In this document: positions 4,774 through 59,018 of the stretch, in pieces
Position numbering within the stretch: position 1 is the first letter of the stretch
Layout: the number at the start of each line of letters is the position of its first letter
Source: Lactobacillus sp. Sy-1
GTDB lineage: Bacteria > Bacillota > Bacilli > Lactobacillales > Lactobacillaceae
Assembly (NCBI RefSeq): GCF_019303535.1
Contig: NZ_JACCIU010000002.1
Location: forward strand, 248,001 to 312,000
Length of the DNA: 64,000 bases
Reading direction: 5' to 3'
The notes under the pieces: model-generated
What the model was told of the DNA's origin: nothing
Seen by the model: only the letters and a program-made list of their open reading frames with translations
The model's database searches: none
Made by a program: the position numbers and the translations under genes

Positions 4774-4801
4774 TTGACTTTATTAAAAAATAGTGTAGTA
4801 T
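4774..4801 (+). promoter_or_regulatory. promoter of the aroF operon leader
   Basis: TTGACT (4774-4779) and TAGTAT (4796-4801) are separated by 16 nt, about 35 nt before the leader-peptide start codon. The -35 box is near consensus and the -10 box is moderate. Confidence 0.55.
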
Positions 4802-4836
4802 TCTAACCATAAATTAATTTTACGGAGGTAATTGAC

Positions 4837-4881
4837 ATGTTAAAAAATAGAATGACGGTTCTTTACTATAGCTTTTGGTAA
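4837..4881 (+). CDS. aromatic leader peptide of the aroF operon
   Basis: A 14-codon ORF preceded by a strong ACGGAGGT ribosome binding site (4822-4829) encodes MLKNRMTVLYYSFW. It ends in Tyr-Tyr-Ser-Phe-Trp, so codons of all three aromatic amino acids lie directly before the stop codon. It is followed by mutually exclusive hairpins and a strong terminator upstream of DAHP synthase. This is the classical arrangement of ribosome-mediated transcription attenuation: slow translation at aromatic codons would favour read-through into aroF-aroB. The peptide is seen directly; the mechanism is inferred from known attenuators such as trpL and pheL. Confidence 0.85.
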   Translation: MLKNRMTVLYYSFW

Positions 4882-4902
4882 ATGATACTCTATCTTGAAT
4901 TG

Positions 4903-5047
4903 CACGAGATGGAGTACCACTCCATTTCGTGTGGCCAAGAGCTGTTAACATGTCACTTCGGTCACGCACATGGCTATACCATTGCGGATCGATCATTTAT
5001 GAATCGAAAACCCCTGTAATGGTATTGCCATTACAGGGGTTTTTATT
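4903..5047 (+). promoter_or_regulatory. attenuator with terminator and antiterminator, aroF operon
   Basis: Three elements follow the leader peptide. Arms 4903-4914 and 4920-4931 make a 12-bp hairpin with one G-U pair. The terminator has perfect 16-bp arms 5007-5022 and 5028-5043 followed by T residues. The 8-nt ATACCATT at 4976-4983 is exactly complementary to AATGGTAT at 5018-5025, which includes part of the terminator arm and its loop, so it can act as antiterminator. Complementarities are observed; the switching model is inference. Confidence 0.75.
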
Positions 5048-5086
5048 TGTTTATTGATGATTGATTACAGATTGGAGATTTTTACT

Positions 5087-6073
5087 ATGATTATTTTATT
5101 TAACTCAAAAGACGAACCAATGATTGCGCAACTTACTGAACGCTTCCAAGACCAAACAGATGTATTTCAAAATGCAGAACGATTAGCAATCAATGGGATT
5201 TCATTATCAGACTTAACGGATGAAGAACAAGCTGCAGCGGTTGAGATTATTGAAGACCATCCCCAAGCGATTCAAAGCAGTCGCATCTTTCATCCAGAAC
5301 CCCTAACGATTAAAACGAAGCATAGCGTGATTAGTAACGATAACTTCACAATTATGGCTGGCCCCTGTTCAGTTGAATCCGAAGCCCATGTTATGAAAAT
5401 GGCTGAAGCTGCTAAGGCTGCGGGAGCAACGGTTCTCCGTGGTGGTGCATTTAAGCCCCGGACATCACCCTACTCATTCCAAGGGTTAGGTGAAGATGGA
5501 CTACGGTTCTTAAAACGCGCTGCTGATGCATTCGAAATGGATGTGATTACCGAAGTGATGGATGAGACCCATGTTGCTCTGGTTGAAAAATACACTGATA
5601 TTTTCCCAATTGGGGCTCGCAACATGCAGAACTTCTCACTATTGAAGGCCGTTGGGAAAACTAATAAGCCGGTAATGCTTAAGCGGGGGTTGTCAGCTAC
5701 GATCGATGACCTATTGAATGCAGCGGAATACATTGCTTCTGAGGGTAATCACCAAATTATTTTGGCAGAGCGTGGAATTCGGACGTTCGATAACAAGTAC
5801 ACTCGGAACACCCTTGATGTGGGAGCAGTGCCAGTTCTACACTCCCTTACCCCCTACCCTGTAATAGTTGATCCAAGCCATGCAGCTGGGCATACTGACT
5901 TAGTAATTCCAGAAGCGCTTGCCGGAACCGCAGCTGGTGCGGACGGCTTAATAATCGAAATTCATGATGATCCAAGCCATGCATTATCTGACGGTGCTCA
6001 GGCGTTATCTCCAGAACAACTAGTAGCAACTTGTGATCAAGCACGCGCAATTAATAAAATTGTGGAGGGATAG
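5087..6073 (+). CDS. aroF: 3-deoxy-7-phosphoheptulonate (DAHP) synthase, type I-beta
   Basis: The enzyme condenses phosphoenolpyruvate and erythrose 4-phosphate, the first step of the shikimate pathway in the cytosol. The 328-residue product has a short ferredoxin-like N-terminal regulatory region (about residues 1-75) and a TIM barrel starting at the GPCSVES motif (92-98). RGGAFKPRTSPYSFQG, the GARNMQN loop and the C-terminal VDPSHAAGH with metal/PEP-binding residues follow. The ATG at 5087 is chosen because TTGGAG lies 10 nt upstream; an ATG at 5054 lacks a binding site. aroB follows after 2 nt. Expression is probably set by the attenuator upstream. Confidence 0.93.
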   Translation: MIILFNSKDEPMIAQLTERFQDQTDVFQNAERLAINGISLSDLTDEEQAAAVEIIEDHPQAIQSSRIFHPEPLTIKTKHSVISNDNFTIMAGPCSVESEAHVMKMAEAAKAAGATVLRGGAFKPRTSPYSFQGLGEDGLRFLKRAADAFEMDVITEVMDETHVALVEKYTDIFPIGARNMQNFSLLKAVGKTNKPVMLKRGLSATIDDLLNAAEYIASEGNHQIILAERGIRTFDNKYTRNTLDVGAVPVLHSLTPYPVIVDPSHAAGHTDLVIPEALAGTAAGADGLIIEIHDDPSHALSDGAQALSPEQLVATCDQARAINKIVEG

Positions 6074-6075
6074 GA

Positions 6076-7137
6076 ATGAAACCAATTGAAGTTAAAACAG
6101 CGGGTGAAACGTATCCAGTAATGATTGAACGGGGAAACTTAGACCAAGTTGGCAAATTAGTTGGTCAGATTTGGCAACCCCGCAAGGTGAAGATCGTTAC
6201 CGATGATAATGTTGGTCCGATATACCTGGATCAAATTAAAAAAGAGCTATCTGCTAACGGGTTTAAGGTATTTACCACCACGATTAAACATGGTGAGAAG
6301 TCCAAATCACTATCTAATTTAGAACGAATTATTACGGAAATGGCAAATGAACATTTCAACCGTAGTGATGGAGTCGTCGCCCTTGGTGGCGGGGTTGTTG
6401 GGGACCTTGCTGGGTTCGTATCCGCAACCTACATGCGAGGAATTGCACTAATCCAAATTCCAACTTCCTTTTTGGCACAGGTGGATAGTTCGGTTGGTGG
6501 TAAAACTGCCGTGGACTTAAATCACATTAAGAATATTGTGGGCAGTTTTCATCAACCAGAAATGGTAATTATCGATCCGGATACGCTTAACACGCTTACG
6601 ATTAGAAACTTAGTAGAGGGATACGCTGAAACGGTTAAGTGTGCCGCCCTAGCTGGTGGTGAATTTTGGGAATTAGTTAGTAAAATTGATTCCTATGGCG
6701 ACATTATTGAAAATGCTGATCGGCTAATTCACTATTCAATTCACTTTAAGGCTAACATTGTGATGCAGGATGAAAAAGAATCTGGTGTTCGTCAATTGTT
6801 GAACCTAGGGCATACGATTGGTCACGGAGTTGAAGGACTCGGTGAAGGCGACATTATGCATGGAGAAGCCGTAGCAATCGGGTTAGTGAAAATCAGTCAG
6901 TTATTTTCGAGTCCAGAAAGTAAGGTAACTGATAAAATTACCGACCGCTTAAGTAAGGTTGGCCTACCGATTACCTCTGACTTTCTAACTTCTCCTGATT
7001 TAATCGAAAAAATTAAAAATGATAAAAAGAATCATAACGGATACTTAAATATTATTTATCTTTCCGAAATTGGCAAACCGGTTATTAAGAAAGTATCGAT
7101 TGATGAGTTAGATCATTTATTAAACGAAGAGAGATGA
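6076..7137 (+). CDS. aroB: 3-dehydroquinate synthase
   Basis: The 353-residue protein catalyses the second shikimate step, cyclising DAHP to 3-dehydroquinate with NAD and a divalent metal. Family motifs are present: the nucleotide-binding GGGVVGDLAGF near residue 107, PTSFLAQVDSSVGGKT near 133, and metal ligands in EGYAE, NLGHTIGHGVE and MHGEAVAIG. The length is normal. It starts 2 nt after aroF with GGGATAGG as binding site, so the two are translationally linked and share the aromatic attenuator. Confidence 0.95.
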   Translation: MKPIEVKTAGETYPVMIERGNLDQVGKLVGQIWQPRKVKIVTDDNVGPIYLDQIKKELSANGFKVFTTTIKHGEKSKSLSNLERIITEMANEHFNRSDGVVALGGGVVGDLAGFVSATYMRGIALIQIPTSFLAQVDSSVGGKTAVDLNHIKNIVGSFHQPEMVIIDPDTLNTLTIRNLVEGYAETVKCAALAGGEFWELVSKIDSYGDIIENADRLIHYSIHFKANIVMQDEKESGVRQLLNLGHTIGHGVEGLGEGDIMHGEAVAIGLVKISQLFSSPESKVTDKITDRLSKVGLPITSDFLTSPDLIEKIKNDKKNHNGYLNIIYLSEIGKPVIKKVSIDELDHLLNEER

Positions 7138-9758: not shown

Positions 9759-9786
9759 AGTTTTGTAAATTAAATAATCTAACTGT

Positions 9787-9924
9787 CCACTGGGGTGCTG
9801 TAAAGCTGAGATAATACCCATTGAACCTGAACCTAGATAATACTAGCGTAGGAACGTGGCTTAAAATCGAAATCAATACCGATTAATTGGCGCTTTCTGA
9901 ACTGCTCAGGAGGCGCTTCTTTTT
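9787..9924 (+). promoter_or_regulatory. TPP riboswitch (THI element) with terminator
   Basis: The aptamer (9787-9859) contains the conserved blocks GGGGTGC, GCTGAGA, ACCC, TGAACCTGA and CTAGATAATACTAGCGTAG, closed by CCAC/GTGG. The expression platform is an 11-bp hairpin, arms 9890-9900 and 9906-9916, followed by TTCTTTTT. Binding of thiamine pyrophosphate is expected to cause early termination before tenA. Confidence 0.95.
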
Positions 9925-20383: not shown

Positions 20384-20640
20384 AAAAGCCCCCGTCTCTA
20401 ACTTAATAGAAACGGAGGCTCCGCGGTACCATTCTAATTTAGATTCATAATAATACGAATCCATCTCGCTAACGTCTACCAAATAAAACTGTAAACGTGT
20501 GCACTAATAATGAAGTGCCGGACCATTATTATCTAAATATCGATAATACCAATCACAGGTCATCTTCGCCTAGTCTGCGCTAATCCATTCTCAGCAACCA
20601 TGGATTTTCTGGGTAGCTTAACTGAGTTACTCTCCTGCTC
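20384..20640 (-). promoter_or_regulatory. T-box leader, specifier most like ATG (Met)
   Basis: On the reverse strand the conserved T-box antiterminator sequence TGGTACCGCGG (complement of 20421-20431) is followed by a strong terminator (complement of 20385-20420). Stem I contains GGTTGCTGAGAA. The specifier loop reads GCGAAGATGACC; by analogy with GAA-N-codon-A loops the codon is ATG (complement of 20561-20563). The Trp T-box in this window has the same codon-ACC layout. GAT or GAC (Asp) are less likely alternatives. Confidence 0.9.
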
Positions 20641-20771
20641 GTATTGTTTATGTAATCATTTATTATTATTTTCTAATCATATTATAATTCTTTTTGATTT
20701 AATTTCAAGTATAATTATGAGATTTTTTTAATTTGAACGTGGATGATGGGCTAAAAAGCCGCGCTATCAAT

Positions 20772-20807
20772 AAACCAGCCACCCTAAATTTTTAGAGTGG
20801 CTGGTTT
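20772..20807 (-). terminator. terminator of the small membrane gene
   Basis: AAACCAGCCAC (20772-20782) pairs with GTGGCTGGTTT (20797-20807), with extra inner CTAAA/TTTAG pairing, directly at the stop codon of the reverse-strand gene. Confidence 0.75.
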
Positions 20808-21041
20808 CTAATCCTGCTTATTTTCTGATCGTTTGTTATTGAGACTAACCACAGTAGCATAACCAATAATAATAAATGGGAATCCATAGGTGATGATTTT
20901 AATCCCTGTCCACATCGTATCATACGGGATTAAATTAAATTGATTCTGTCGACTGAAATGCATTAGCATTAGTAGTGTAATTAGGGTCAACACGACGAGT
21001 CCCTGGATCGAAATAAATATAATTGAGATTCTTTTGTTCAC
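20808..21041 (-). CDS. small two-helix membrane protein
   Basis: The 77-residue product starts at GTG with an excellent GGAGGTGA site upstream. Helix 1 spans about residues 5-27 and helix 2 about 46-65, ending in a charged tail (SLNNKRSENKQD). No family is recognised. It sits between two terminators and is therefore its own unit. Confidence 0.65.
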   Translation of the reverse strand: MNKRISIIFISIQGLVVLTLITLLMLMHFSRQNQFNLIPYDTMWTGIKIITYGFPFIIIGYATVVSLNNKRSENKQD

Positions 21042-22150: not shown

Positions 22151-22430
22151 AAAAAGCGCCCCTAGCCTCCCAATAATTTGGGATCCTAAGGGCGCTCACG
22201 CGCGTTACCACCTTAATTTATCAGGAAATGAAACTCTCCTGACCTCGACGTACGGTCAAATGAATCAACGATACGCTGGCATGATAACGGATGCTTCCGG
22301 TAGGACTTACTTAAGATTCAGTCTACTAACTAAAGAATGATAACTACTCATAATCTCAATACACTGTCTCACCACCCCAGTGCTCTCTGCAAAATTGATT
22401 AATTCGTTTTTTCTTATAATCGCTATTTAT
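22151..22430 (-). promoter_or_regulatory. T-box leader of the hydratase gene, specifier uncertain (Leu CTT or Ile ATC)
   Basis: The reverse strand shows AAGGTGGTAACGCG (complement of 22201-22214), a good T-box sequence, followed by a GAGCGCCC...GGGCGCT terminator ending in a T-run (complement of 22151-22195). Stem I has the distal hairpin CACTG-GGGTGGTGAGA-CAGTG. The likely specifier loop reads CTGAATCTTAAG. With GAA-N-codon-A spacing the codon is CTT (Leu, complement of 22313-22315); ATC (Ile) is one base off. Confidence 0.88.
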
Positions 22431-31912: not shown

Positions 31913-32259
31913 TAAAAAAATCCGCCCATAACAACGCAACTAATGCTTTGTTAAGGACGGATTCTTTTTATCCGCGGTGCCACCTTAATTAGACTGGTCT
32001 AATTATTACCTAGGACACCAAATAATGGTCCTAAATAATAATTAAATCAATCCCTCCTTAGCGAGATACGTGTTCATATCCCCGGCAACTGACGTATGCC
32101 TGACGTTTCTCCGTACTCAACTTGCGTTTTTCGGAAGAACCCTCCGTGGTCCATTTAACTGCCTGCGTTCGGTCGCATTCCCATCATCGGCGACTCTCTT
32201 TACGTGCACAACAATCTTGATCTCCACATCGTTGGTTTTTGTAATAGACGAATTATTTA
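31913..32259 (-). promoter_or_regulatory. Trp T-box leader of the trp operon
   Basis: The reverse strand carries AAGGTGGCACCGCGG (complement of 31972-31986), the T-box motif, and a terminator with AATCCGTCC/GGGCGGATT arms and a T-run (complement of 31914-31965). The stem I specifier loop reads TTAAATGGACC, giving TGG (Trp, complement of 32151-32153), with GTGG/CCAC as the base stem. A TATAAT box lies at 32267-32272. Uncharged tRNA-Trp should allow read-through into trpE. Confidence 0.95.
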
Positions 32260-33631: not shown

Positions 33632-33691
33632 ATGAAGAATCAAATGATTAATAATAATAGTTATTATTATGGCTTCTATTACTTTAAGTAG
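33632..33691 (+). CDS. Tyr/Phe leader peptide of the aroE operon
   Basis: A 19-residue ORF with AGAAGGG upstream encodes MKNQMINNNSYYYGFYYFK. It holds five Tyr and two Phe codons within nine residues and no Trp, in contrast to the aroF leader. It is followed by alternative hairpins and a strong terminator before aroE. This codon bias is the signature of ribosome-mediated attenuation sensing charged tRNA-Tyr and tRNA-Phe. Peptide and hairpins are observed; the mechanism is inferred. Confidence 0.85.
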   Translation: MKNQMINNNSYYYGFYYFK

Positions 33692-33699
33692 TGCGTTCG

Positions 33700-33887
33700 T
33701 ACATATGATGCGGACGTACACATGCGTTCGCATCTAAGTAGTAAAGTCATTGATTTTGATTTTAGCTAGTTAGATGTGAGAGTTCATCTAGCTAGTGGTT
33801 CATAATAATACGATTGCTTTAGACGAAGTCAAAGTAGGTATTAAGCCAGCTAGGTGAATTAATTCATCCAGCTGGCTTTTTATTTTG
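33700..33887 (+). promoter_or_regulatory. attenuator with terminator, aroE operon
   Basis: The region after the leader peptide has a hairpin with arms 33766-33776 and 33785-33795 (one G-U pair), and a terminator with arms AAGCCAGCT (33843-33851) and AGCTGGCTT (33870-33878), inner GGTGAAT/ATTCATCC pairing and a TTTTATTTT tail. CTAGCTAG of the first hairpin (33788-33795) is nearly complementary to CCAGCTAGG of the terminator arm, so the two structures can compete. Confidence 0.75.
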
Positions 33888-33904: not shown

Positions 33905-34798
33905 ATGAGTAATATTGATGGTCACACAATTTTAATTGGTTTAATGGCATACCCAATTCGCCACTCTATGTCCCCTACTATGCACAACGCTGCTTTTGAA
34001 AAGTTGAATTTAAACTACGCCTACCTGGCGTTCGATATTGATTCTGACCGCTTGGAAGCTGGGGTCAACGCACTCCGGACGCTGGACATGCGGGGCACGA
34101 ACGTTTCAATGCCTAACAAACAACGAATTATCAAGTACCTAGACAAATTAGACGTTTCAGCAGAAATGAACCAAGCCGTTAACACGGTCGTGAACGATAA
34201 CGGCGTCTTGACTGGCTACACCACTGACGGCGTTGGCTTCACAACTGATCTTAAGAAGAAGGGCCATCCCGTTGCCGGTAAGAAAATGGTCTTAGCAGGT
34301 GCCGGTGGTGCCGGAACCCCAATTGCGATCCAATCAGCAATGGAGGGTTTAAGTGAAGTAAAGATTTTTAATCGAGCTGACACGAACCTCGATAATGCGA
34401 AACGGGTAGCTAAGATCATCAACGAACGGACCGACTGTAAAGCTAGTGTTGAAGCACTCGAAAACCAAGCTGCATTCAAATCCGCAATTGCCGAAGCAGA
34501 TATCTACTGTGATGCAACTGGAGTGGGGATGAAGCCCCTGGAAGATGTGAGCTTAGTGAACGACCCGAATTGGTTCCACAAGGACCTCGTCGTATTCGAC
34601 ACTGTTTACTCCCCTCGCGAAACAAAGTTAATGAAGATTGCTAAGTCAGCAGGCCTTAAGCACGTTTACAACGGGCTAGGGATGATGATCGAACAGGGAG
34701 CAGCCGCATTTAAGCTCTGGACTGGTGAAGACATGCCAATTGACGTTGTTGAAGAAGCAATTGCTAAAAAGGATGGGCATGCGAATGAAAAAGATTAA
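33905..34798 (+). CDS. aroE: shikimate dehydrogenase
   Basis: The 297-residue protein reduces 3-dehydroshikimate to shikimate with NAD(P)H. It has MAYPIRHSMSPTMHNAAFE, the catalytic-lysine motif NVSMPNK (usually NVTxPxK), TTDGVGF, the Rossmann loop LAGAGGAGTP near residue 131, and C-terminal GLGMMIEQGAAAFKLWTG. The sequence type is close to the shikimate/quinate dehydrogenase (YdiB-like) branch, so quinate use is possible. It is the first gene after the Tyr/Phe attenuator and overlaps aroD by 20 nt. Confidence 0.92.
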   Translation: MSNIDGHTILIGLMAYPIRHSMSPTMHNAAFEKLNLNYAYLAFDIDSDRLEAGVNALRTLDMRGTNVSMPNKQRIIKYLDKLDVSAEMNQAVNTVVNDNGVLTGYTTDGVGFTTDLKKKGHPVAGKKMVLAGAGGAGTPIAIQSAMEGLSEVKIFNRADTNLDNAKRVAKIINERTDCKASVEALENQAAFKSAIAEADIYCDATGVGMKPLEDVSLVNDPNWFHKDLVVFDTVYSPRETKLMKIAKSAGLKHVYNGLGMMIEQGAAAFKLWTGEDMPIDVVEEAIAKKDGHANEKD

Positions 34799-35534
34799 CG
34801 TAGGTTCAACCACCCTGAGCGATCAGCACCCTAGCGTTGCGGTTCCAATCACCGGAACGGATGAGGCTGAGATTAGTCAGCAGCTGCAGTTGATCAAGGC
34901 TGAAAGCGTTGATTTGATTGAGTTTCGGATTGACTATTTAACCGACTTTACCGCAGCTGCCCTGCAAAACGGAAAGCAACAAATTCAAGCTCGCTTTCCA
35001 GCCGTTCCAATAATTGCTACGATTCGAACACAATCTGAGGGCGGTAAGTTTGACGACCACCATGACGACTACCTAGCCGCTTTGAAGCAGGTTATCAACG
35101 TTGGCTTTTCACTCTTAGACGTTGAAATTAGTCGCCCCGGGGTCGCTGACGTCATTACCATTGCACACCAACACCACCAATTAGTAATTGGTAGTTTTCA
35201 TAACTTCACCCAGACGCCAGCTGATCAAACCCTGCTAGCAACATGGCAAAAGATGGAAACGCTCGGTTGTGACGTTGCAAAAATGGCGGTAATGCCAAAT
35301 ATTAACGACGACGTATTGAGGTTTATGCAAGTTTCCAATCAGGCTAACCAAACCCTTAAAGTTCCAATCATCAGCATGGCAATGGGGAAACTTGGCATTG
35401 TCACTCGCATTAGCGGTCCGCTGACCGGTTCAGTAATTACCTTTGGCAGCATTACTAATGAAGCTCAATCAGCACCGGGCCAAATTACAAGTCCGCAACT
35501 AGCAGCGATTATCAACATCGTTGCACCACAATAA
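34779..35534 (+). CDS. aroD: 3-dehydroquinate dehydratase, type I
   Basis: The product of about 251 residues removes water from 3-dehydroquinate through a Schiff base. VDLIEFRIDYL, IATIRTQSEGG, the general-base His in IGSFHNF and the Schiff-base Lys in CDVAKMAVMP are present, with SMGKLG-like MAMGKLGIVTRI near the end. The ATG at 34779 has AAAAGG 6 nt upstream; longer in-frame starts lie deep within aroE. Confidence 0.93.
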   Translation: MRMKKINVGSTTLSDQHPSVAVPITGTDEAEISQQLQLIKAESVDLIEFRIDYLTDFTAAALQNGKQQIQARFPAVPIIATIRTQSEGGKFDDHHDDYLAALKQVINVGFSLLDVEISRPGVADVITIAHQHHQLVIGSFHNFTQTPADQTLLATWQKMETLGCDVAKMAVMPNINDDVLRFMQVSNQANQTLKVPIISMAMGKLGIVTRISGPLTGSVITFGSITNEAQSAPGQITSPQLAAIINIVAPQ

Positions 35535-35547
35535 GGAGGAACGCAAA

Positions 35548-36981
35548 ATGAATCGAATTCGACTAAAAACGGGGTTATTCCTAAACTACTTAGTGCACGG
35601 GTTTGCATTGATCATCCTAACCCAAAACCTATTGCCCCTCGCTCATAATTGGGGGAGCAGCTTAGCAGTTGCATCATTCGCCCTTTCCGGAATTGGAATC
35701 GGCCGTTTGATTGCATACTTAATCATGGGGTTCGTCTCCGATCGCTTCGGTCGGAAGACCACCCTAATGATTGGAATGACCACGTACCTAATCTTCTTTG
35801 TAGTTTCCCCCTTAAACCATTCATTAGCGATTGCATACTTAATGTCAATCATTGCCGGAATTGCTAATTCAGCTTTGGATTCCGCAACTTACCCCCTCTT
35901 TTCCGAATTGGAAGGGAACAGCAGTTCCAACAGTATCCTATTGAAGGCGTTCATCTCAGTCGGTGAATTTATTCTGCCAATCATCGTTCTCTTCTTAAAG
36001 GGGCGCGACCTTTGGTTCGGAATTTCCTTCTGGATCCCAGCAGTTGTGTTACTATTAAACGTAGCTAATGTTGCAAGTTGTAAACTCCCCAAGCGAAGTC
36101 AGGCTGTTGATCAAGTGGTTGATCGAGCCATGCGGATTTCTAAGGTCGGCAAGGGATTACTTACCTTCGCCCTTTTCATCTACGGCTTTACTTCCATGGC
36201 AGTTATGATTTGGTTCACCCAATGGATTACCATTTTTGCCAACAAAATTGGGTTCAACGACGTTACCGCCCACCTCTTATTATCACTGTACAGTATTGGT
36301 TCCATTACCGGAGTATTAACTTCCTTCGTGATTTTAAAACGGTTCAATGTTCAAAGACCCCTTTTCTTGATTTTGAACTTGGTTTCATTAGTTTCAATCG
36401 CAGTGGTTAGCTTCAGTCAAACGCCATTACTTTCAGCAGTTGCTTCCTTTACGTTTGGCCTTAGTGCTGCTGGAGGACTAATGCAATTAGCGTTAAGTCA
36501 ACTACTTAGCATCTTCCCTAAGCATAAGGGAATCTACACTGGAATCTTCTTTATGTTCGGAAGTATTGCCTCGTTCTCAATTCCGATTATCACCGGATTC
36601 TTGATTCGTTTCGGCGAACAAAACATCCTAATGGGTGACATCGTAATTGCGTTCATTGGTTTATTAGCAGCAATCATCACGTTCTTGGTGAAGCCATCAA
36701 AGGAGAATCAACTAGAGGCCGCTCGTTCTGAAATCAACGCCATTGATGCTCAATTAGTAGCACTCTTAGAACAACGTTTCTCAGCGGTTAAGGAAGTTCA
36801 AGCGTTCAAGGAAGAACACCAACTACCAACTGAAGATGCTGATCGGGAGTCAGCCGTGTTGGAAAAGATTAAGCAACTAACCCGAAACAAGGATTTAGTG
36901 CACTACAACCAAAACATTATTCAAAACATCATGAATAATTCAAAACAATACCAAACTAAACTCAATCAAAATAAATCGTAA
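35548..36981 (+). CDS. fusion: MFS transporter with C-terminal chorismate mutase domain
   Basis: The 477-residue product has two parts. Residues about 1-383 are a 12-helix MFS transporter with motif A (GFVSDRFGRKTT) after helix 2. Residues about 386-470 are an AroQ-type chorismate mutase: LEAARSEINAIDAQLVALL, RFSAVKEVQAFK, the DADRESAVLEKI helix and a C-terminal NIMNNSKQYQ. Chorismate mutase makes prephenate, and no separate mutase gene exists in this operon, so this domain probably feeds tyrA. AAGGAGG lies 7 nt before the ATG. What the transporter half carries is unknown; shikimate-pathway acids or aromatic compounds are reasonable guesses. Confidence 0.9.
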   Translation: MNRIRLKTGLFLNYLVHGFALIILTQNLLPLAHNWGSSLAVASFALSGIGIGRLIAYLIMGFVSDRFGRKTTLMIGMTTYLIFFVVSPLNHSLAIAYLMSIIAGIANSALDSATYPLFSELEGNSSSNSILLKAFISVGEFILPIIVLFLKGRDLWFGISFWIPAVVLLLNVANVASCKLPKRSQAVDQVVDRAMRISKVGKGLLTFALFIYGFTSMAVMIWFTQWITIFANKIGFNDVTAHLLLSLYSIGSITGVLTSFVILKRFNVQRPLFLILNLVSLVSIAVVSFSQTPLLSAVASFTFGLSAAGGLMQLALSQLLSIFPKHKGIYTGIFFMFGSIASFSIPIITGFLIRFGEQNILMGDIVIAFIGLLAAIITFLVKPSKENQLEAARSEINAIDAQLVALLEQRFSAVKEVQAFKEEHQLPTEDADRESAVLEKIKQLTRNKDLVHYNQNIIQNIMNNSKQYQTKLNQNKS

Positions 36982-36995
36982 AGGATGATTAAACT

Positions 36996-38162
36996 ATGTA
37001 CTACTTAACAGCAGGAGAATCGCACGGACCAGAATTAAGCGGCATTATTGAAGGAATTCCAGCCGGCTTAAAATTAGATGTTGATCAGATCAACGCTGAC
37101 CTAGCCGCTCGGCAAGGTGGCTATGGCCGGGGCAATCGTCAAAAGATTGAACATGACCAAGTAATTATCACTGGTGGGGTTCGGCACGGAATTACCTTAG
37201 GCTCCCCCATTGCCTTGACCGTTAAGAACCGTGACCATGCCCACTGGTCTGAAATTATGAACCCAACGTCGGAAGAAACGCCCCAAAACACGTTGCGTCA
37301 AGTCACTCGCCCTCGCCCTGGCCATGCTGATTTAGTCGGGGGGATGAAGTATAACCACCGGGACTTAAGAAACGTCCTTGAACGCTCATCCGCTCGGGAA
37401 ACTGCAATGCGGGTTGCGATTGGGAGCGTTTGTAAGCAATTGTTGAATCAACTCGGCATTCAAATCATTGGCTACGTTGAAGCCATTGGTGGAATCAATG
37501 CTGATAAGGAGCAACCAACTGATGTTGCTACCATTAAAAAAGCAATCACCAGCAATGATTTACGGGTAATGGATGAAAGTGCAGTGCAACCCATCCATGA
37601 ATTGATTGACGAAACGAAGCGGAACGGGGATACCCTTGGGGGCGTGATTAGAGTGGTTGCCCAAAACGTTCCAGCTGGATTGGGTAGTTACATTAGTTGG
37701 GATACTAAGTTAGACGCTAAATTAGCTGCTGCCGTTATGGGTGTTAACGCCATGAAGGGAGTCGAAATTGGTGATGGCTTTAAGGATGCCGAACATCATG
37801 GAAGCCAAGTAATGGACGAAATCGACTGGGATGCGGACCATGGATTTTCTAGAAATTCAGATCATCTTGGTGGGTTTGAAGGTGGAATGACTAACGGAAT
37901 GCCTGTAATCGTTAAGGCTGCGATGAAGCCAATTCCAACCCTTTACAGACCACTGCAAAGTGCCGACATTAACAGTAAGGAAGTTAAAAAGGCGAACGTA
38001 GAACGTTCTGACACTACGGCAATCGTGCCCGCTTCGATCGTAATTGAAAGCGTGGTTTCCATTGAACTAGCCAAAGCAGTTACGGATACGTTTGATGGTA
38101 GTAACATGGCCCGCTTGAAGAAACAACTTGCCGACTACCGTGCCGAAATTAAAAACTTCTAA
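36996..38162 (+). CDS. aroC: chorismate synthase
   Basis: The 388-residue FMN-dependent enzyme converts EPSP to chorismate. Motifs include TAGESHGPELSGIIEGIPAGL at the N-terminus, RQGGYGRGNRQKIEHD, RPRPGHADLVGGMKY, ERSSARETAMRVA and SDTTAIVPASIVIES. AAAGGATGAT precedes the ATG 14 nt after the fusion gene, and aroA follows after 13 nt. Confidence 0.96.
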   Translation: MYYLTAGESHGPELSGIIEGIPAGLKLDVDQINADLAARQGGYGRGNRQKIEHDQVIITGGVRHGITLGSPIALTVKNRDHAHWSEIMNPTSEETPQNTLRQVTRPRPGHADLVGGMKYNHRDLRNVLERSSARETAMRVAIGSVCKQLLNQLGIQIIGYVEAIGGINADKEQPTDVATIKKAITSNDLRVMDESAVQPIHELIDETKRNGDTLGGVIRVVAQNVPAGLGSYISWDTKLDAKLAAAVMGVNAMKGVEIGDGFKDAEHHGSQVMDEIDWDADHGFSRNSDHLGGFEGGMTNGMPVIVKAAMKPIPTLYRPLQSADINSKEVKKANVERSDTTAIVPASIVIESVVSIELAKAVTDTFDGSNMARLKKQLADYRAEIKNF

Positions 38163-38175
38163 GGAGGTTCCCACA

Positions 38176-39447
38176 ATGCAAACAAACAGCCGTTTATCAG
38201 GAACAATTAGCGTTCCTGGCGACAAAAGTATTTCCCACCGTAGTATTATTTTAGGTGCCCTTAGTAACGGGACCACTAAGATTACTAACTTCTTGCGTTC
38301 TGCTGACTGTATTTCAACAATGGGGGTTTTTCGGAATCTGGGGGTTCAAATTGATGATACGCCAGCCGAAATTACGGTGCATGGGGTTGGAATTAAGGGC
38401 CTTCAAGCCCCTAAGGTTGATTTGGATATGGGAAACTCTGGAACATCGACCAGATTGATCAGCGGGGTTTTAGCTGGACAACCGTTTGTGAGTCGGGTTA
38501 TGGGGGATGCGTCCCTTTCGAAGCGCCCAATGAAGCGAATCATCACCCCCCTTTCTGAAATGGGCAGTGAAATTGATGCGGTTGAAAACCACCTTCCAAT
38601 GACAATTCATGGTACTCAGTTGCACGGGATTCAATATGAGATGCCGGTTGCTAGTGCGCAGGTAAAAAGCGCCATTATCTTGGCGGCCTTACAAGCAGAC
38701 GGTGATACAACCATCATTGAACCGGTGAAATCACGTGATCATACGGAAAATATGCTGGAGCGGTTTAGTCCCGATAGTATTGAAAAGCATGACCACCAAA
38801 TCGTCATTCACCCCCACCACGAATTAGCTGGACAGGCAGTGCACGTGCCTGGCGATATTTCATCAGCCGCCTTTTTCTTGGTTGCGGCTGCAATTGTCCC
38901 CGGTTCAGAAGTAACAATTCAAAACGTTGGAATTAACCCCACCAGAACGGGAATCCTGAACGTGCTCAAGCGTGCTGGAGCGTCAATTACGGAGACGAAC
39001 CGGACAACGGGGGTGGAAGCCAGTGCCGATTTAGCGGTTAAGGCTACCGAACTAAAACCATTTACGGTAACTGGACATGAAATTCCCGGATTGGTTGACG
39101 AAGTGCCCCTTTTAGCCCTTCTGGCAGCGCGAGCCAACGGCGTTAGCAAGATTACCGGAGCAGAAGAACTCCGCTTTAAGGAATCCGACCGAATTAGCGT
39201 AATCGTAACTGAATTTAAGAAGTTGGGAATTGCAATTGAAGAACTTCCCGATGGATTTATAATTGATGGGAGTAAGCCTTGGCATCTAAATGATGCTAAG
39301 CTAAATAGCCATAAGGACCATCGAATTGCAATGACCCTTAAAATTGCTTCATTATTGGTTGACCAACCAGTTACGATTAAGGATTTTGATTCAATCAAGA
39401 TTTCCTACCCGACCTTTAATGATGACTTAGCTAAACTAAGGAGCTGA
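38176..39447 (+). CDS. aroA: 3-phosphoshikimate 1-carboxyvinyltransferase (EPSP synthase)
   Basis: The 423-residue enzyme transfers enolpyruvyl from PEP to shikimate 3-phosphate. It has VPGDKSISHRSIILGALS, MGNSGTSTRLISGVLAGQ with the PEP-binding residues, LPMTIHG, DISSAAFFLVAA, EELRFKESDRI and KDHRIAMT. The GTSTR form, rather than GTA/GN, is typical of class II-like enzymes of Gram-positive bacteria. AAGGAGGT supports the start at 38176; an ATG-less longer frame overlaps aroC. Confidence 0.95.
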   Translation: MQTNSRLSGTISVPGDKSISHRSIILGALSNGTTKITNFLRSADCISTMGVFRNLGVQIDDTPAEITVHGVGIKGLQAPKVDLDMGNSGTSTRLISGVLAGQPFVSRVMGDASLSKRPMKRIITPLSEMGSEIDAVENHLPMTIHGTQLHGIQYEMPVASAQVKSAIILAALQADGDTTIIEPVKSRDHTENMLERFSPDSIEKHDHQIVIHPHHELAGQAVHVPGDISSAAFFLVAAAIVPGSEVTIQNVGINPTRTGILNVLKRAGASITETNRTTGVEASADLAVKATELKPFTVTGHEIPGLVDEVPLLALLAARANGVSKITGAEELRFKESDRISVIVTEFKKLGIAIEELPDGFIIDGSKPWHLNDAKLNSHKDHRIAMTLKIASLLVDQPVTIKDFDSIKISYPTFNDDLAKLRS

Positions 39448-39452
39448 TAAGA

Positions 39453-40310
39453 ATGCCGTCTGTGTTTATTAACGGGTTAGGATTAATCGGCAGCTCCATC
39501 GCCCGGTTAATCAAAGTAGGCCACCCTGATGTAACCATCATTGGCAACGATGCTAATCCAAAGAATGCTGAATACCTATTAGAACATCAAATTATTGATC
39601 GCCAAGTCCCCTTTAATCAGGCTAGTAAACAAGCAGATGTAATCATCCTTGCGACCCCAGTCAATATCATTGTCGAAAGCTTAAAGCAGCTTGGCAGTTT
39701 AGATTTAAAACCGAACACATTTGTAACTGACGTGGGAAGTAGTAAGCAGAAGATTCTCTCAGCAGCTAACCAATTCGTAAAGGATGGTGGGCATTTCATT
39801 GGTGGCCATCCAATGGCTGGTTCACACCTAACTGGCAGTGAAAACGGGAGTGATAAACTGCTTGCTAACCACACTTACTTTCTAGCGAATTTAAACGCTA
39901 GTGATGACCAAGTTAAGTTGCTTAAGGAGCTACTATCAGCTGGGAATTTCAACTTTCAGGCGGTTAGTTCGGAGCAACACGACCGAATTGTGAGCGCAAT
40001 CAGTTACCTGCCCCACGTGGTGGCGTTTAGTTTGATTAACACCGTGGGACCGGAGCTAACTGAACTGGGGGTGGACCCCAGTGTGCCCGCCGGTGGACTA
40101 CTGGATACGACCCGGGTTGCAATGAGTGATCCCAACGTATGGACTTCGATTCTAAGCAGCAGTAGTGAAGATGTGGTAGAGCAAATCGAACAATTTGAGG
40201 TTCAACTTCAACAAATGAAGGCAGCAATTCTTAATAACGATAAACAAACGGTAAAACTGCAAATTGAATCTGCCAAGCATGATCGGCAGGAAATGGAGGA
40301 TGCAAAATGA
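39453..40310 (+). CDS. tyrA: prephenate dehydrogenase
   Basis: The 285-residue protein oxidatively decarboxylates prephenate to 4-hydroxyphenylpyruvate, the tyrosine precursor. It shows the NAD motif GLGLIGSSIARLI, ILATPVN, DVGSSKQKI and FIGGHPMAGSHLTGSENG with the catalytic His. There is no ACT domain, so feedback control by tyrosine may rest on the attenuator. It lies 5 nt after aroA and overlaps aroK by four bases (ATGA). Confidence 0.94.
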   Translation: MPSVFINGLGLIGSSIARLIKVGHPDVTIIGNDANPKNAEYLLEHQIIDRQVPFNQASKQADVIILATPVNIIVESLKQLGSLDLKPNTFVTDVGSSKQKILSAANQFVKDGGHFIGGHPMAGSHLTGSENGSDKLLANHTYFLANLNASDDQVKLLKELLSAGNFNFQAVSSEQHDRIVSAISYLPHVVAFSLINTVGPELTELGVDPSVPAGGLLDTTRVAMSDPNVWTSILSSSSEDVVEQIEQFEVQLQQMKAAILNNDKQTVKLQIESAKHDRQEMEDAK

Positions 40311-40837
40311 AAGTCATTTTAATTGGGTTCATGGGCAGTGGCAAAAGTACGATTGCGGAAGTGCTTAGTGAACAACTAGCGATTGAACACCACGACTTAG
40401 ATTTATTAATTGAAAATCGTTCGGGGCTTAAAATTCCAGAATACTTTGATCAATTTGGTGAAGCGAAGTTTCGTGAATTTGAACACCAAACGCTAATTGA
40501 TGCATTGGAAATGGATGGAATTGTGTCAACTGGTGGTGGGACTCCGGTTCAAGATGCTAACTTTGCGTTATTGCTAGACCACCCTACTCCAACTGTATTT
40601 TTAAATGCTTCTGATGATACCGTTATCAAACGGTTGGTAAGTGATGGCATCCAGTCGCGCCCCCTTTTCCAACAATTAGGTGAGGAAGGCCTATTGGATC
40701 TAAAGCATTCAAGACAGAATCGGTATGAACAATTAGCTGACATTACAATTGACGTTAATGATAAAACGCCAGATAAAATTGTGGCAGAGATTATTGAAAA
40801 ATTAAATCAGGGAACGAATAAGGAACGAGCTTATTGA
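40307..40837 (+). CDS. aroK: shikimate kinase
   Basis: The 176-residue P-loop kinase phosphorylates shikimate at the 3-position. The Walker A motif GFMGSGKSTIAE, the shikimate-binding DLDLLIENRSGLKIPEYFDQFGEAKFREFE and the STGGGTP motif are present. It is the last gene of the operon. No strong terminator follows; transcription may run toward the decayed toxin-antitoxin locus, which lies on the other strand. Confidence 0.94.
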   Translation: MKVILIGFMGSGKSTIAEVLSEQLAIEHHDLDLLIENRSGLKIPEYFDQFGEAKFREFEHQTLIDALEMDGIVSTGGGTPVQDANFALLLDHPTPTVFLNASDDTVIKRLVSDGIQSRPLFQQLGEEGLLDLKHSRQNRYEQLADITIDVNDKTPDKIVAEIIEKLNQGTNKERAY

Positions 40838-58250: not shown

Positions 58251-59018
58251 TTATTGACATGGATTATTTTCACTACACGATGCCCTTTTTAGTTTATATT
58301 TTATTGTATCTATTATTTTCTTTGTTTCACCTTTATCTAAGTCATAATCAACTTTTTTACTTTTATCATTTTTTACGTATTCCACTATATAATCCGCATA
58401 AACCTTTCCAATCGTGCTTTCAAGTCCGTTTGAACAACCTTTACAATGATTCGCATCTTGATTATACAAACTCCCAGGGGCAAATTTTAACTTGAAATCT
58501 TTTTTATTTCCAGCAGCTTTGCTATCTTCATATTTAAAACATACGTATTTTATAATTATAAATGCATGCAATATAGCATGTTCCATGTGATTACAAAAAA
58601 CTAAATTTTCTTTTTGCTGTTATTCATGAAATTTTGTTTCAAAAAGGCTTTCTTTTATTTTTTTAGAACCTAAATTGGGAACTATATTTTCATGAATATG
58701 ATGCTTCCAAATATCTTTATCACGGGGTTCTTTACCTTTAAATGAACGTTTTGTGTGTCCATTTCTAATAACAAGATATTTAACTAGCTTATAGTATTCA
58801 AGGTCCGCTTCTTTTGTTTTATCCAAATCTTTTTTGTAATTATCTTTCAAATGGATATCTAAATTAGCATCGATAAGATCTTGATAATATTTTAAATCCT
58901 TTTCCCTTTCTTTAATACTATTTTCATTACCATTAATTTCAAACATTTCATCGTTATACTCATAGTGCTGTTTAAATAAATCATCATAGTATTTTAGTTC
59001 GTCAGACAATATGTTCAT
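58251..59018 (-). pseudogene. HNH endonuclease-like gene split by an in-frame stop codon
   Basis: Two reverse-strand frames (132 and 111 codons from their own starts) lie in the same reading frame and are separated by a single TAA at 58620-58622. Read through, the protein of about 255 residues has an acidic helical N-terminus and an HNH-like core: IWKHHIHENIVPNLGSKKIK, then QKENLVFCNHMEHAILHAFII after the stop, followed by a CKGC motif. The joined HHI...NLV(F/Y)C...EH..LH layout matches HNH-type nucleases found with lactobacillus phage or restriction genes. The stop is probably an inactivating mutation or a sequence error. Confidence 0.6.

Follow-up and report, generated by a model that had tools for sequence, protein, structure and literature searches.

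In the his operon attenuator of enteric bacteria, and likewise in the enteric trp and pheA leaders, a leader peptide with a run of cognate codons precedes RNA segments that pair in two alternating ways, as 1:2, 3:4, and 5:6 or as 2:3 and 4:5. In enteric trp leaders the leader start is also buried by a distal segment, and Rfam includes enteric leader families for His, Trp, Leu, Phe, and Thr. Attenuation of amino-acid genes by leader peptides has been seen as proteobacterial and actinobacterial, with few Firmicutes cases (PMC2965389). His leader peptides were described in bacilli (Naville and Gautheret, 2010, PMC2965389), and the Leu attenuator peptide of the S. aureus ilv-leu operon is supported (Kaiser, 2018, PMC5794164); these are also Firmicutes leader-peptide systems, but for other amino acids and genes than those considered here, and we claim no sequence relation to them. 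The uORF called uORFC-13-1 (Brewer, 2021, PMC8632094) has at least one Phe codon and lies before aroF, just 5′ of a terminator; it is an aroF uORF like that of our element 1, but it is reported only from Acholeplasma and environmental sequences, and the likeness drawn here is not one of sequence. In S. agalactiae, gbs1262 and gbs2033 are 5′ elements with short and long transcripts, located before paralogous ABC transporters, and one of them also lies before aroFBC-tyrA of E. faecium; both were proposed as riboswitches for aromatic amino acids or their precursors (Rosinski-Chupin et al., 2015, PMC4448216), and the term “leader peptide” is absent from the main text of that paper. In what we saw of one open-access library (subscription papers were not covered), none of these Lactobacillales genes was described as having a leader peptide.

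We analysed a stretch of 64,000 nucleotides from Lactobacillus sp. Sy-1 (the window; positions below are numbered within it) and identified two elements that resemble the his operon attenuator in having a leader peptide with a codon run, the same alternating pairings, and an intrinsic terminator. They differ from it in an additional pair of mutually exclusive hairpins (A and B) between segments 1 and 2; in a further helix over the leader start codon, found in the first of two types of these elements; in their codons, which mix Tyr, Phe, and Trp; and, relatives included, in the genes behind, among which are DAHP synthase, transketolase, and transporter genes. The parts of element 1 are listed here; helices are complementary runs, with G-U pairs permitted.

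4774 to 4801, forward strand: promoter-like site TTGACT-16-TAGTAT, matching at 9 of 12 positions (such sites are no more numerous than chance predicts)
4824 to 4829, forward strand: ribosome binding site GGAGGT of leader ORF 1, 7 nt 5′ of the ATG, read from the sequence
4837 to 4881, forward strand: leader ORF 1, MLKNRMTVLYYSFW, 14 codons M-L-K-N-R-M-T-V-L-Y-Y-S-F-W, stop codon TAA at 4879-4881
4833 to 4843, forward strand: start-codon arm of helix P0, pairing with 4945-4955 (11 bp) and covering the leader start codon
4868 to 4879, forward strand: segment 1, covering the second Tyr codon and the Ser-Phe-Trp codons, forming helix 1:2 with segment 2 at 4934-4945 (12 bp)
4886 to 4897, forward strand: 5′ arm of hairpin A, starting five bases past the stop codon and pairing with 4905-4916 (12 bp)
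4900 to 4934, forward strand: hairpin B, 4900-4915 with 4919-4934 (16 bp)
4929 to 4936, forward strand: segment 2 in the alternative helix 2:3, GTGTGGCC with segment 3 GGTCACGC at 4960-4967 (8 bp)
4958 to 4992, forward strand: hairpin 3:4 (anti-antiterminator), within these bounds
4976 to 4987, forward strand: segment 4, the antiterminator arm of 4:5, pairing with 5014-5025 (12 bp)
5006 to 5044, forward strand: intrinsic terminator 5:6, 5006-5024 with 5026-5044 (18-19 bp) and a T-run
5087 to 6073, forward strand: aroF, DAHP synthase (PF00793, 1.3e-76)
6076 to 7137, forward strand: aroB, 3-dehydroquinate synthase (PF01761)

The initial annotation had recognised here a 14-codon ORF with a strong ribosome binding site and codons for Tyr, Phe, and Trp right before the stop, and had placed aroF-aroB behind it; we confirmed the start at ATG 4837 with GGAGGT 7 nt upstream, and Pfam assigns the two genes as named. 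The antiterminator it had drawn between 4976-4983 and 5018-5025 lies at exactly those bases, as part of the longer 4:5 helix, and its terminator is present, but is longer than the 16 bp given. Hairpins A and B have a common arm, hence they are mutually exclusive. The counterpart of leader ORF 1 in a sister genome is MLKDRMTVLFYSYW (locus L085). The leader RNA (4807-5050) folds at -98.4 kcal/mol versus a mean of -52.2 for dinucleotide shuffles (z = -11.6; 0 of 200 shuffles equal). Taken by itself, a short ORF rich in aromatic codons does not exceed chance (three in the window versus 1.8 ± 1.1 in 40 first-order Markov windows), nor does the promoter-like site, since seven such sites occur in the stretch and 6.7 are expected. 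The significance of element 1 lies in the combination of its parts and in their conservation. The third of the aromatic-rich ORFs, with its ATG at 58692, is antisense to an ORF and was rejected.

Element 2 was found through weak matches of two covariance models at 33655-33797.

33632 to 33691, forward strand: leader ORF 2, MKNQMINNNSYYYGFYYFK; the sister genome has MNKQIIINSYYYGFYYFS, of the same kind, at the same place
33677 to 33743, forward strand: helix 1:2, 33677-33684 with 33736-33743 (8 bp)
33691 to 33734, forward strand: the mutually exclusive hairpins; A pairs 33691-33701 with 33709-33719, B pairs 33707-33718 with 33723-33734
33727 to 33796, forward strand: helices 2:3 (33727-33737 with 33770-33780) and 3:4 (33765-33776 with 33785-33796)
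within 33781 to 33878, forward strand: antiterminator 4:5, 33781-33793 with 33848-33860
within 33781 to 33878, forward strand: terminator 5:6, 33843-33851 with 33870-33878 plus an inner stem
33905 to 40837, forward strand: second aro operon, aroE, aroD, MFS-chorismate mutase, aroC, aroA, tyrA, aroK

The first four genes of this operon were named by Pfam (aroE, starting at 33905, is a shikimate dehydrogenase, and aroD a type I 3-dehydroquinase), and aroA, tyrA, and aroK by eye from the sequence. The ORF at 35548-36981 joins a Major Facilitator transporter and a C-terminal chorismate mutase in one (Pfam MFS_1 and CM_2). Element 2 stands ahead of most of the remaining pathway genes in the window; with element 1, the two shikimate operons of the window are thus both under leaders of one design.

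We consider it very likely that these elements are ribosome-dependent transcription attenuators of the his/trp type. The ORF and its codons, the alternative helices and how they are conserved, and the neighbouring genes are established from sequence and comparison; that ribosomes stall, in which order the RNA folds, and what the physiological signal is are inferred, and no experiment was done. In the mechanism that we propose, a ribosome would be translating the aromatic-rich peptide as RNA polymerase transcribes the leader. Under a shortage of charged tRNA-Tyr or tRNA-Phe, this ribosome would stall at the Tyr/Phe codons and leave the sequence after the stop codon exposed. The exposed sequence could then form hairpin A, drawing an arm away from hairpin B, whose remaining arm (segment 2) would be freed to capture segment 3; segment 4 would be freed in turn to capture segment 5, and with 4:5 paired no terminator would form and aroF-aroB would be transcribed. 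With plentiful aromatic amino acids, the ribosome would reach the stop codon and cover the 5′ arm of A, so that B, 3:4, and the terminator form. After its release, segment 1, that is, the codons, may pair with segment 2 and lock termination, and in the Lactobacillaceae type P0 may bury the leader start codon as part of that lock. Several features expected of an attenuator are present: there is a short, translated-looking ORF with a ribosome binding site (the transcript start is not known), a conserved run of pathway codons, an intrinsic terminator before the first gene, an exclusive antiterminator that shares an arm of the terminator, and covarying helices (weakly so for the antitermination helices of the second type; 4:5 is supported by complementarity and folding only). 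The ribosome-mediated attenuation suggested initially is supported, with more alternating segments than were first noted.

We searched for relatives of element 1 by taking in up to 3 kb upstream of 80 aroF loci (the best of 117). A scan detected an aromatic leader directly 5′ of aroF in 23 of the 80, from Lentilactobacillus, Limosilactobacillus, Fructobacillus, and one Lactobacillus sp. (e.g., MIKINSKINRFYYYWYA, MVINCQLHSFYYWS, and MLKARTTVRFYSYW); our first covariance model (R1) added 17 more, in which the element mostly lies further upstream, for a total of 40. The other 40 loci (Companilactobacillus, Weissella, and Leuconostoc among them) gave no R1 match in the stretch taken, at E up to 0.01; at least 14 of them have an element elsewhere in the whole genome, mostly before a transketolase gene. 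Across the family, R1 had one match each in 70 of 397 genomes (12 of 40 genera). After removal of duplicates, 71 distinct first-type elements remained, including that of the window, and all 71 precede an aromatic-pathway gene: aroF (30), transketolase (20), aroE (18), an aminotransferase gene (2), or aroC (1). These calls of the next gene were made by eye; Pfam was applied to the aroF of the window and to ten proteins taken from first-type and second-type loci. A leader ORF with a ribosome binding site was recognised by script in 69 of the 71; in L126 no ribosome binding site was recognised ahead of the aromatic leader frame, and L121 has an aromatic frame at a contig end, with no visible ATG. 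One first-type element, from Sporolactobacillus laevolacticus (L051), lies outside the family.

The initial annotation had asked, as a test, whether relatives keep the aromatic codons and the pairing, and many of them keep both; a chance ORF beside an unrelated terminator was rejected for this conservation. In a structure-neutral alignment of 25 first-type leader cores (an ORF in L064 was left out as spurious), the termination-state helices have double-sided changes in 24 of 35 pairs, with 86.6% of the cells paired versus 30-41% when slid, and their covariation score was reached by no shuffle. The antitermination helices (A and 2:3) have double-sided changes in 12 of 21 pairs, 81.8% of the cells paired (28-44% when slid), and a covariation score of 0.300 versus at most 0.129 (0 of 500 shuffles equal). 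Since sliding A and 2:3 by one column still gives 11 doubly changed pairs, with far fewer paired cells, their support rests on the paired cells and the covariation score. Helices 4:5 and 5:6 were left out of the column-wise covariation, as the alignment is poor between segments 4 and 5. Helix P0 beats 190 or more out of 200 shuffled versions of its partner stretch in 22 of the 25 (mean -11.1 versus -4.4 kcal/mol).

The second type is spread through the order, which judging by the named relatives is Lactobacillales. R2, a model built from 72 aligned matches (one row is wrong, an antisense match in L005), matched 40 of 395 order genomes at E up to 0.01. We examined 33 R2 loci; all have an aromatic leader except L199 (match G009), which was rejected for this reason, and 31 have an aromatic-pathway or ABC_sub_bind-like gene behind (L194 stops at a contig end). 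The leaders of other families are of the form QLNNFYFSYFR, and what follows them is aroE, the gene of a DAHP synthase, or genes of ABC_sub_bind transporters; the wider second-type set adds chorismate synthase, 3-dehydroquinate synthase, aminotransferase, and transketolase to the genes behind. In 19 second-type cores, 97.2% of the cells of the termination-state helices are paired (32-41% when slid), with double changes in 8 of 33 pairs. The antitermination helices are paired in 94.5% of cells (28-50% when slid) and nearly invariant, with three double changes and a covariation not clearly above shuffles in these 19 cores. Helix P0 was seen in none of the 19.

With R3, the second-type model, we obtained matches in 253 of 395 order genomes and 62 of 81 genera, up to five per genome, only part of which we examined; in the class, R3 matched 26 of 299 genomes, five of them, in three families, outside the order. 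Thirty of 47 loci from the R3 searches of order and class were examined by eye: aroE lies behind 18, an ABC_sub_bind-like gene behind 11, and neither behind L230. The script found a leader in 23 of these 30, the other seven having no recognised ribosome binding site and leader frames that were seen otherwise. Among 19 further element stretches, 18 have such a leader; the exception, L261, has a leader-like frame MAQLSINTHYSVNQRTWQNWRR with two Trp codons, 5′ of a 638-codon ORF resembling ABC_sub_bind proteins, and is perhaps a Trp-reading version. In all, 139 distinct leader-like ORFs were listed, a few of them seemingly spurious (in L035, L238, and L258). E-values of the models are rough and some elements are missed: R1 misses element 2 and R3 misses element 1, so the genome counts are probably lower bounds. 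If our reading is right, this leader-peptide class stands ahead of aromatic genes in most of the genera sampled in the order.

Some loci depart from the common arrangement. In L149, L150, L206, and L207, elements with leaders containing RYYFWFF or RYYFRFF precede an aminotransferase gene; in L206 and L207, hairpins A and B are, by eye, seemingly missing, and segments 1 and 2 pair directly. L268 (also L186 and L205) has two elements about 1.3 kb apart in one genome, each before its own ABC_sub_bind-like gene, and L185 and L187 have a second leader-like ORF, MRNLMSTQLNHNFFAGFFG, beside MMKNMKPTQLNSVYYYGYYG in the same loci. In the aroF loci of Agrilactobacillus and Lacticaseibacillus (L059-L061, L068, and L070), there are extra aromatic-rich short ORFs (RYYWFS, YYAWYAFY, and FYAWYAYF), which the models hardly detect or miss. 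Elsewhere in the genome of the window itself, L277 (C1:581224-581343, reverse strand) has a leader-like ORF with QLNISARFWRF, complementary flanks, and a terminator; by eye the ORF runs about 32 codons further, and the gene behind resembles a D-2-hydroxyacid dehydrogenase gene. Two other candidates in this genome were rejected: C2:318277-318529, which has no leader, and 20773-20880 of the window (reverse strand), which by eye lies within a reading frame.

Are the aromatic codons read? In 48 distinct second-type leaders, only TAY or TTY occurs in the two codons immediately 5′ of helix 1:2; the first encodes Phe in 22 leaders and Tyr in 26, and the second Tyr in 42 and Phe in 6. When the leaders are compared pairwise at these codons, codon position 1 never differs, but positions 2 and 3 differ 824 and 587 times, respectively, a pattern that is not expected of unread RNA. 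One family (L258 and L259) has a Phe-only terminal run, QSNTFFFSDFR or QLNTFFFSDFR, with one Tyr further upstream, and the gene behind is that of prephenate dehydratase (pheA; Pfam was run on L258 only); this gene-matched run is found in one lineage, and other leaders differ in whether they have Phe or Tyr before the same genes.

These codons bear on the proposal that the RNA is a metabolite riboswitch, which would bind an aromatic amino acid or a precursor directly, as put forward for gbs1262 and gbs2033 (Rosinski-Chupin et al., 2015). Like our elements, gbs1262 and gbs2033 have a terminator and an antiterminator and stand before ABC transporter and aro genes, and in genomes of the order we found the present class 5′ of a DAHP synthase gene and of ABC_sub_bind genes; from gene context, without a direct sequence comparison, gbs1262 and gbs2033 probably belong to the same class. 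A conserved, structured 5′ UTR of this kind before transporter and aro genes would suit a riboswitch, as would the short and long transcripts that RNA-seq of S. agalactiae detected from one start site (PMC4448216). However, the conserved parts are an ORF with start, ribosome binding site, and stop, whose TAY/TTY codons change at positions 2 and 3; helix 1:2 is made of the codons themselves and changes with them while its pairing is kept; and the aromatic run before pheA in one lineage is of Phe only. We therefore regard direct binding as very unlikely and continue to favor attenuation by a translating ribosome.

A second feature of the leaders suggests another way in which a ribosome might halt, namely arrest by the nascent peptide, as in TnaC or Erm leaders, with the aromatic run in the exit tunnel and either independent of the codons or assisted by them. 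Q-L-N 5′ of the aromatic run is common in second-type leaders (Leu in 36 of 48, encoded by CTG in 27, TTG in 4, TTA in 3, and CTA in 2; Asn in 41 of 48), and because its Leu is written with four different codons, the peptide itself may have a role. The sequences bearing Q-L-N are related, however, and element 1 and the Fructobacillus leaders lack it; moreover, the aromatic identity follows the gene in the lineage with Phe before pheA, which suits tRNA sensing. Arrest by the peptide is accordingly improbable to us, if somewhat less so than a riboswitch, and sensing of tRNA charging remains the reading that we prefer.

Two Rfam families present relatives of these elements in a different light. 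We gave Rfam 20 loci, 19 of the second type and one transketolase locus, and at the gathering score 10 of them matched families filed as sRNA genes, nine matching RF02863 sRNA_2410 and one RF02822 Srn266; the elements of the window itself match neither. sRNA_2410 was reported as a 195-nt RNA of E. faecium giving two transcripts on Northern blots (PMC5593968), and srn266 of S. pneumoniae is listed among putative trans-acting sRNAs (PMC12323649); passages of PMC3166299 and PMC3395615 contain nothing on these names. The family names and the blots would fit a small RNA acting in trans, but at nearly all loci examined an aromatic gene lies downstream on the same strand, and the 3′ end is an intrinsic terminator that has its own antiterminator; attenuation, too, would be expected to yield a short RNA. 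We give a trans-acting RNA hardly any credence, and take these matches to be relatives of the attenuator.

T-boxes would be the obvious device here, since this genome usually relies on them, with 38 matches of which 18 pass the cut-off. T-box leaders also control aromatic genes in the window, but they read uncharged tRNA directly, without translation. Neither element matches the T-box family (RF00230) at the gathering score, and element 1 has no match even at E up to 1, whereas other T-boxes in the window are detected; that either element is a T-box can be practically dismissed. The enteric leader families of Rfam have no match at the elements of the window either (for element 1, also at E up to 1), and attenuation through a leader peptide of a separate class is what we retain. 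The initial annotation had called such a system unusual among T-boxes; this is apt for so T-box-rich a genome but not for the order, where the class is common, nor for the literature, in which relatives match two Rfam sRNA families and the proposal in PMC4448216 probably concerns the same class.

On the reverse strand of the window, T-boxes are located at 20405-20651, before an aminotransferase gene; at 22185-22429, before a gene that by eye is hydratase-like; and at 31950-32241, before the trp operon, the last two being below the Rfam gathering score. There is also a TPP riboswitch at 9781-9872, before apparent thiamine genes.

We also folded the leaders under a ribosome mask, a crude footprint whose 3′ edge lay 12 nt beyond where the A-site codon starts. 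In element 1, with the transcript ending after segment 3, a stall at the first Tyr codon gave 10.4 expected pairs in A, 0.5 in B, and 8.5 in 2:3; a stall at the Phe codon left A and B about equal; and a ribosome at the Trp codon or the stop gave 12.4-12.8 pairs in B versus 0-0.1 in A. The single peptide had been thought to sense the total aromatic pool, an idea that this folding does not bear out: it favors Tyr/Phe, and a stall at the last Trp leaves the switch closed. Since a Tyr stall opens the switch, a Phe stall about half, and the last Trp does not, element 1 is better named a Tyr/Phe sensor, and in this model the last Trp codon of leader ORF 1 is probably not sensing. At the same transcript length, A prevails over B in all 19 second-type cores when stalled, in none at the stop, and in 18 without a ribosome (where 2:3 is low); in the first type, the counts are 12, 0, and 3 of 25.

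Longer transcripts behave differently at equilibrium. Once segment 4 is present, 3:4 is favored over 2:3 at any ribosome position in all 25 first-type cores and at least 14 of the 19 of the second type, and the switch must therefore rest on co-transcriptional kinetics; equilibrium folding alone does not reproduce it. With segment 5 present, 4:5 prevails over 3:4 even with the ribosome at the stop in 17 of 25 first-type and 10 of 19 second-type cores (in element 1, 8.0 versus 1.3 expected pairs; element 2 also forms 4:5), and 2:3 over 3:4 in 15 of 25 first-type cores when stalled versus 14 of 25 at the stop, which is hardly different. Without a ribosome, element 1 takes the terminating fold (1:2, B, and 3:4), and in element 2, with the transcript ending before the 3′ arm of the terminator, A and 2:3 stay.

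A more far-reaching version of this reading is speculative, and we think it rather doubtful: the leaders could be dual sensors, of charged tRNA-Tyr/tRNA-Phe and of nascent-peptide pausing at Q-L-N, the alternating segments relaying the pause to the terminator, and all could derive from one ancestral device that stands in for T-boxes across much of the aromatic regulon of the order (biosynthesis, transketolase supply, aminotransferase, and transporter). The elements offer a ready test system for how the position of a ribosome is relayed through alternating hairpins. If the attenuation reading is true, one class of leader would account for two Rfam “sRNA” families and probably for a proposed pair of riboswitches, and T-boxes and leader peptides would divide one pathway between them within a single 64-kb stretch of this genome.
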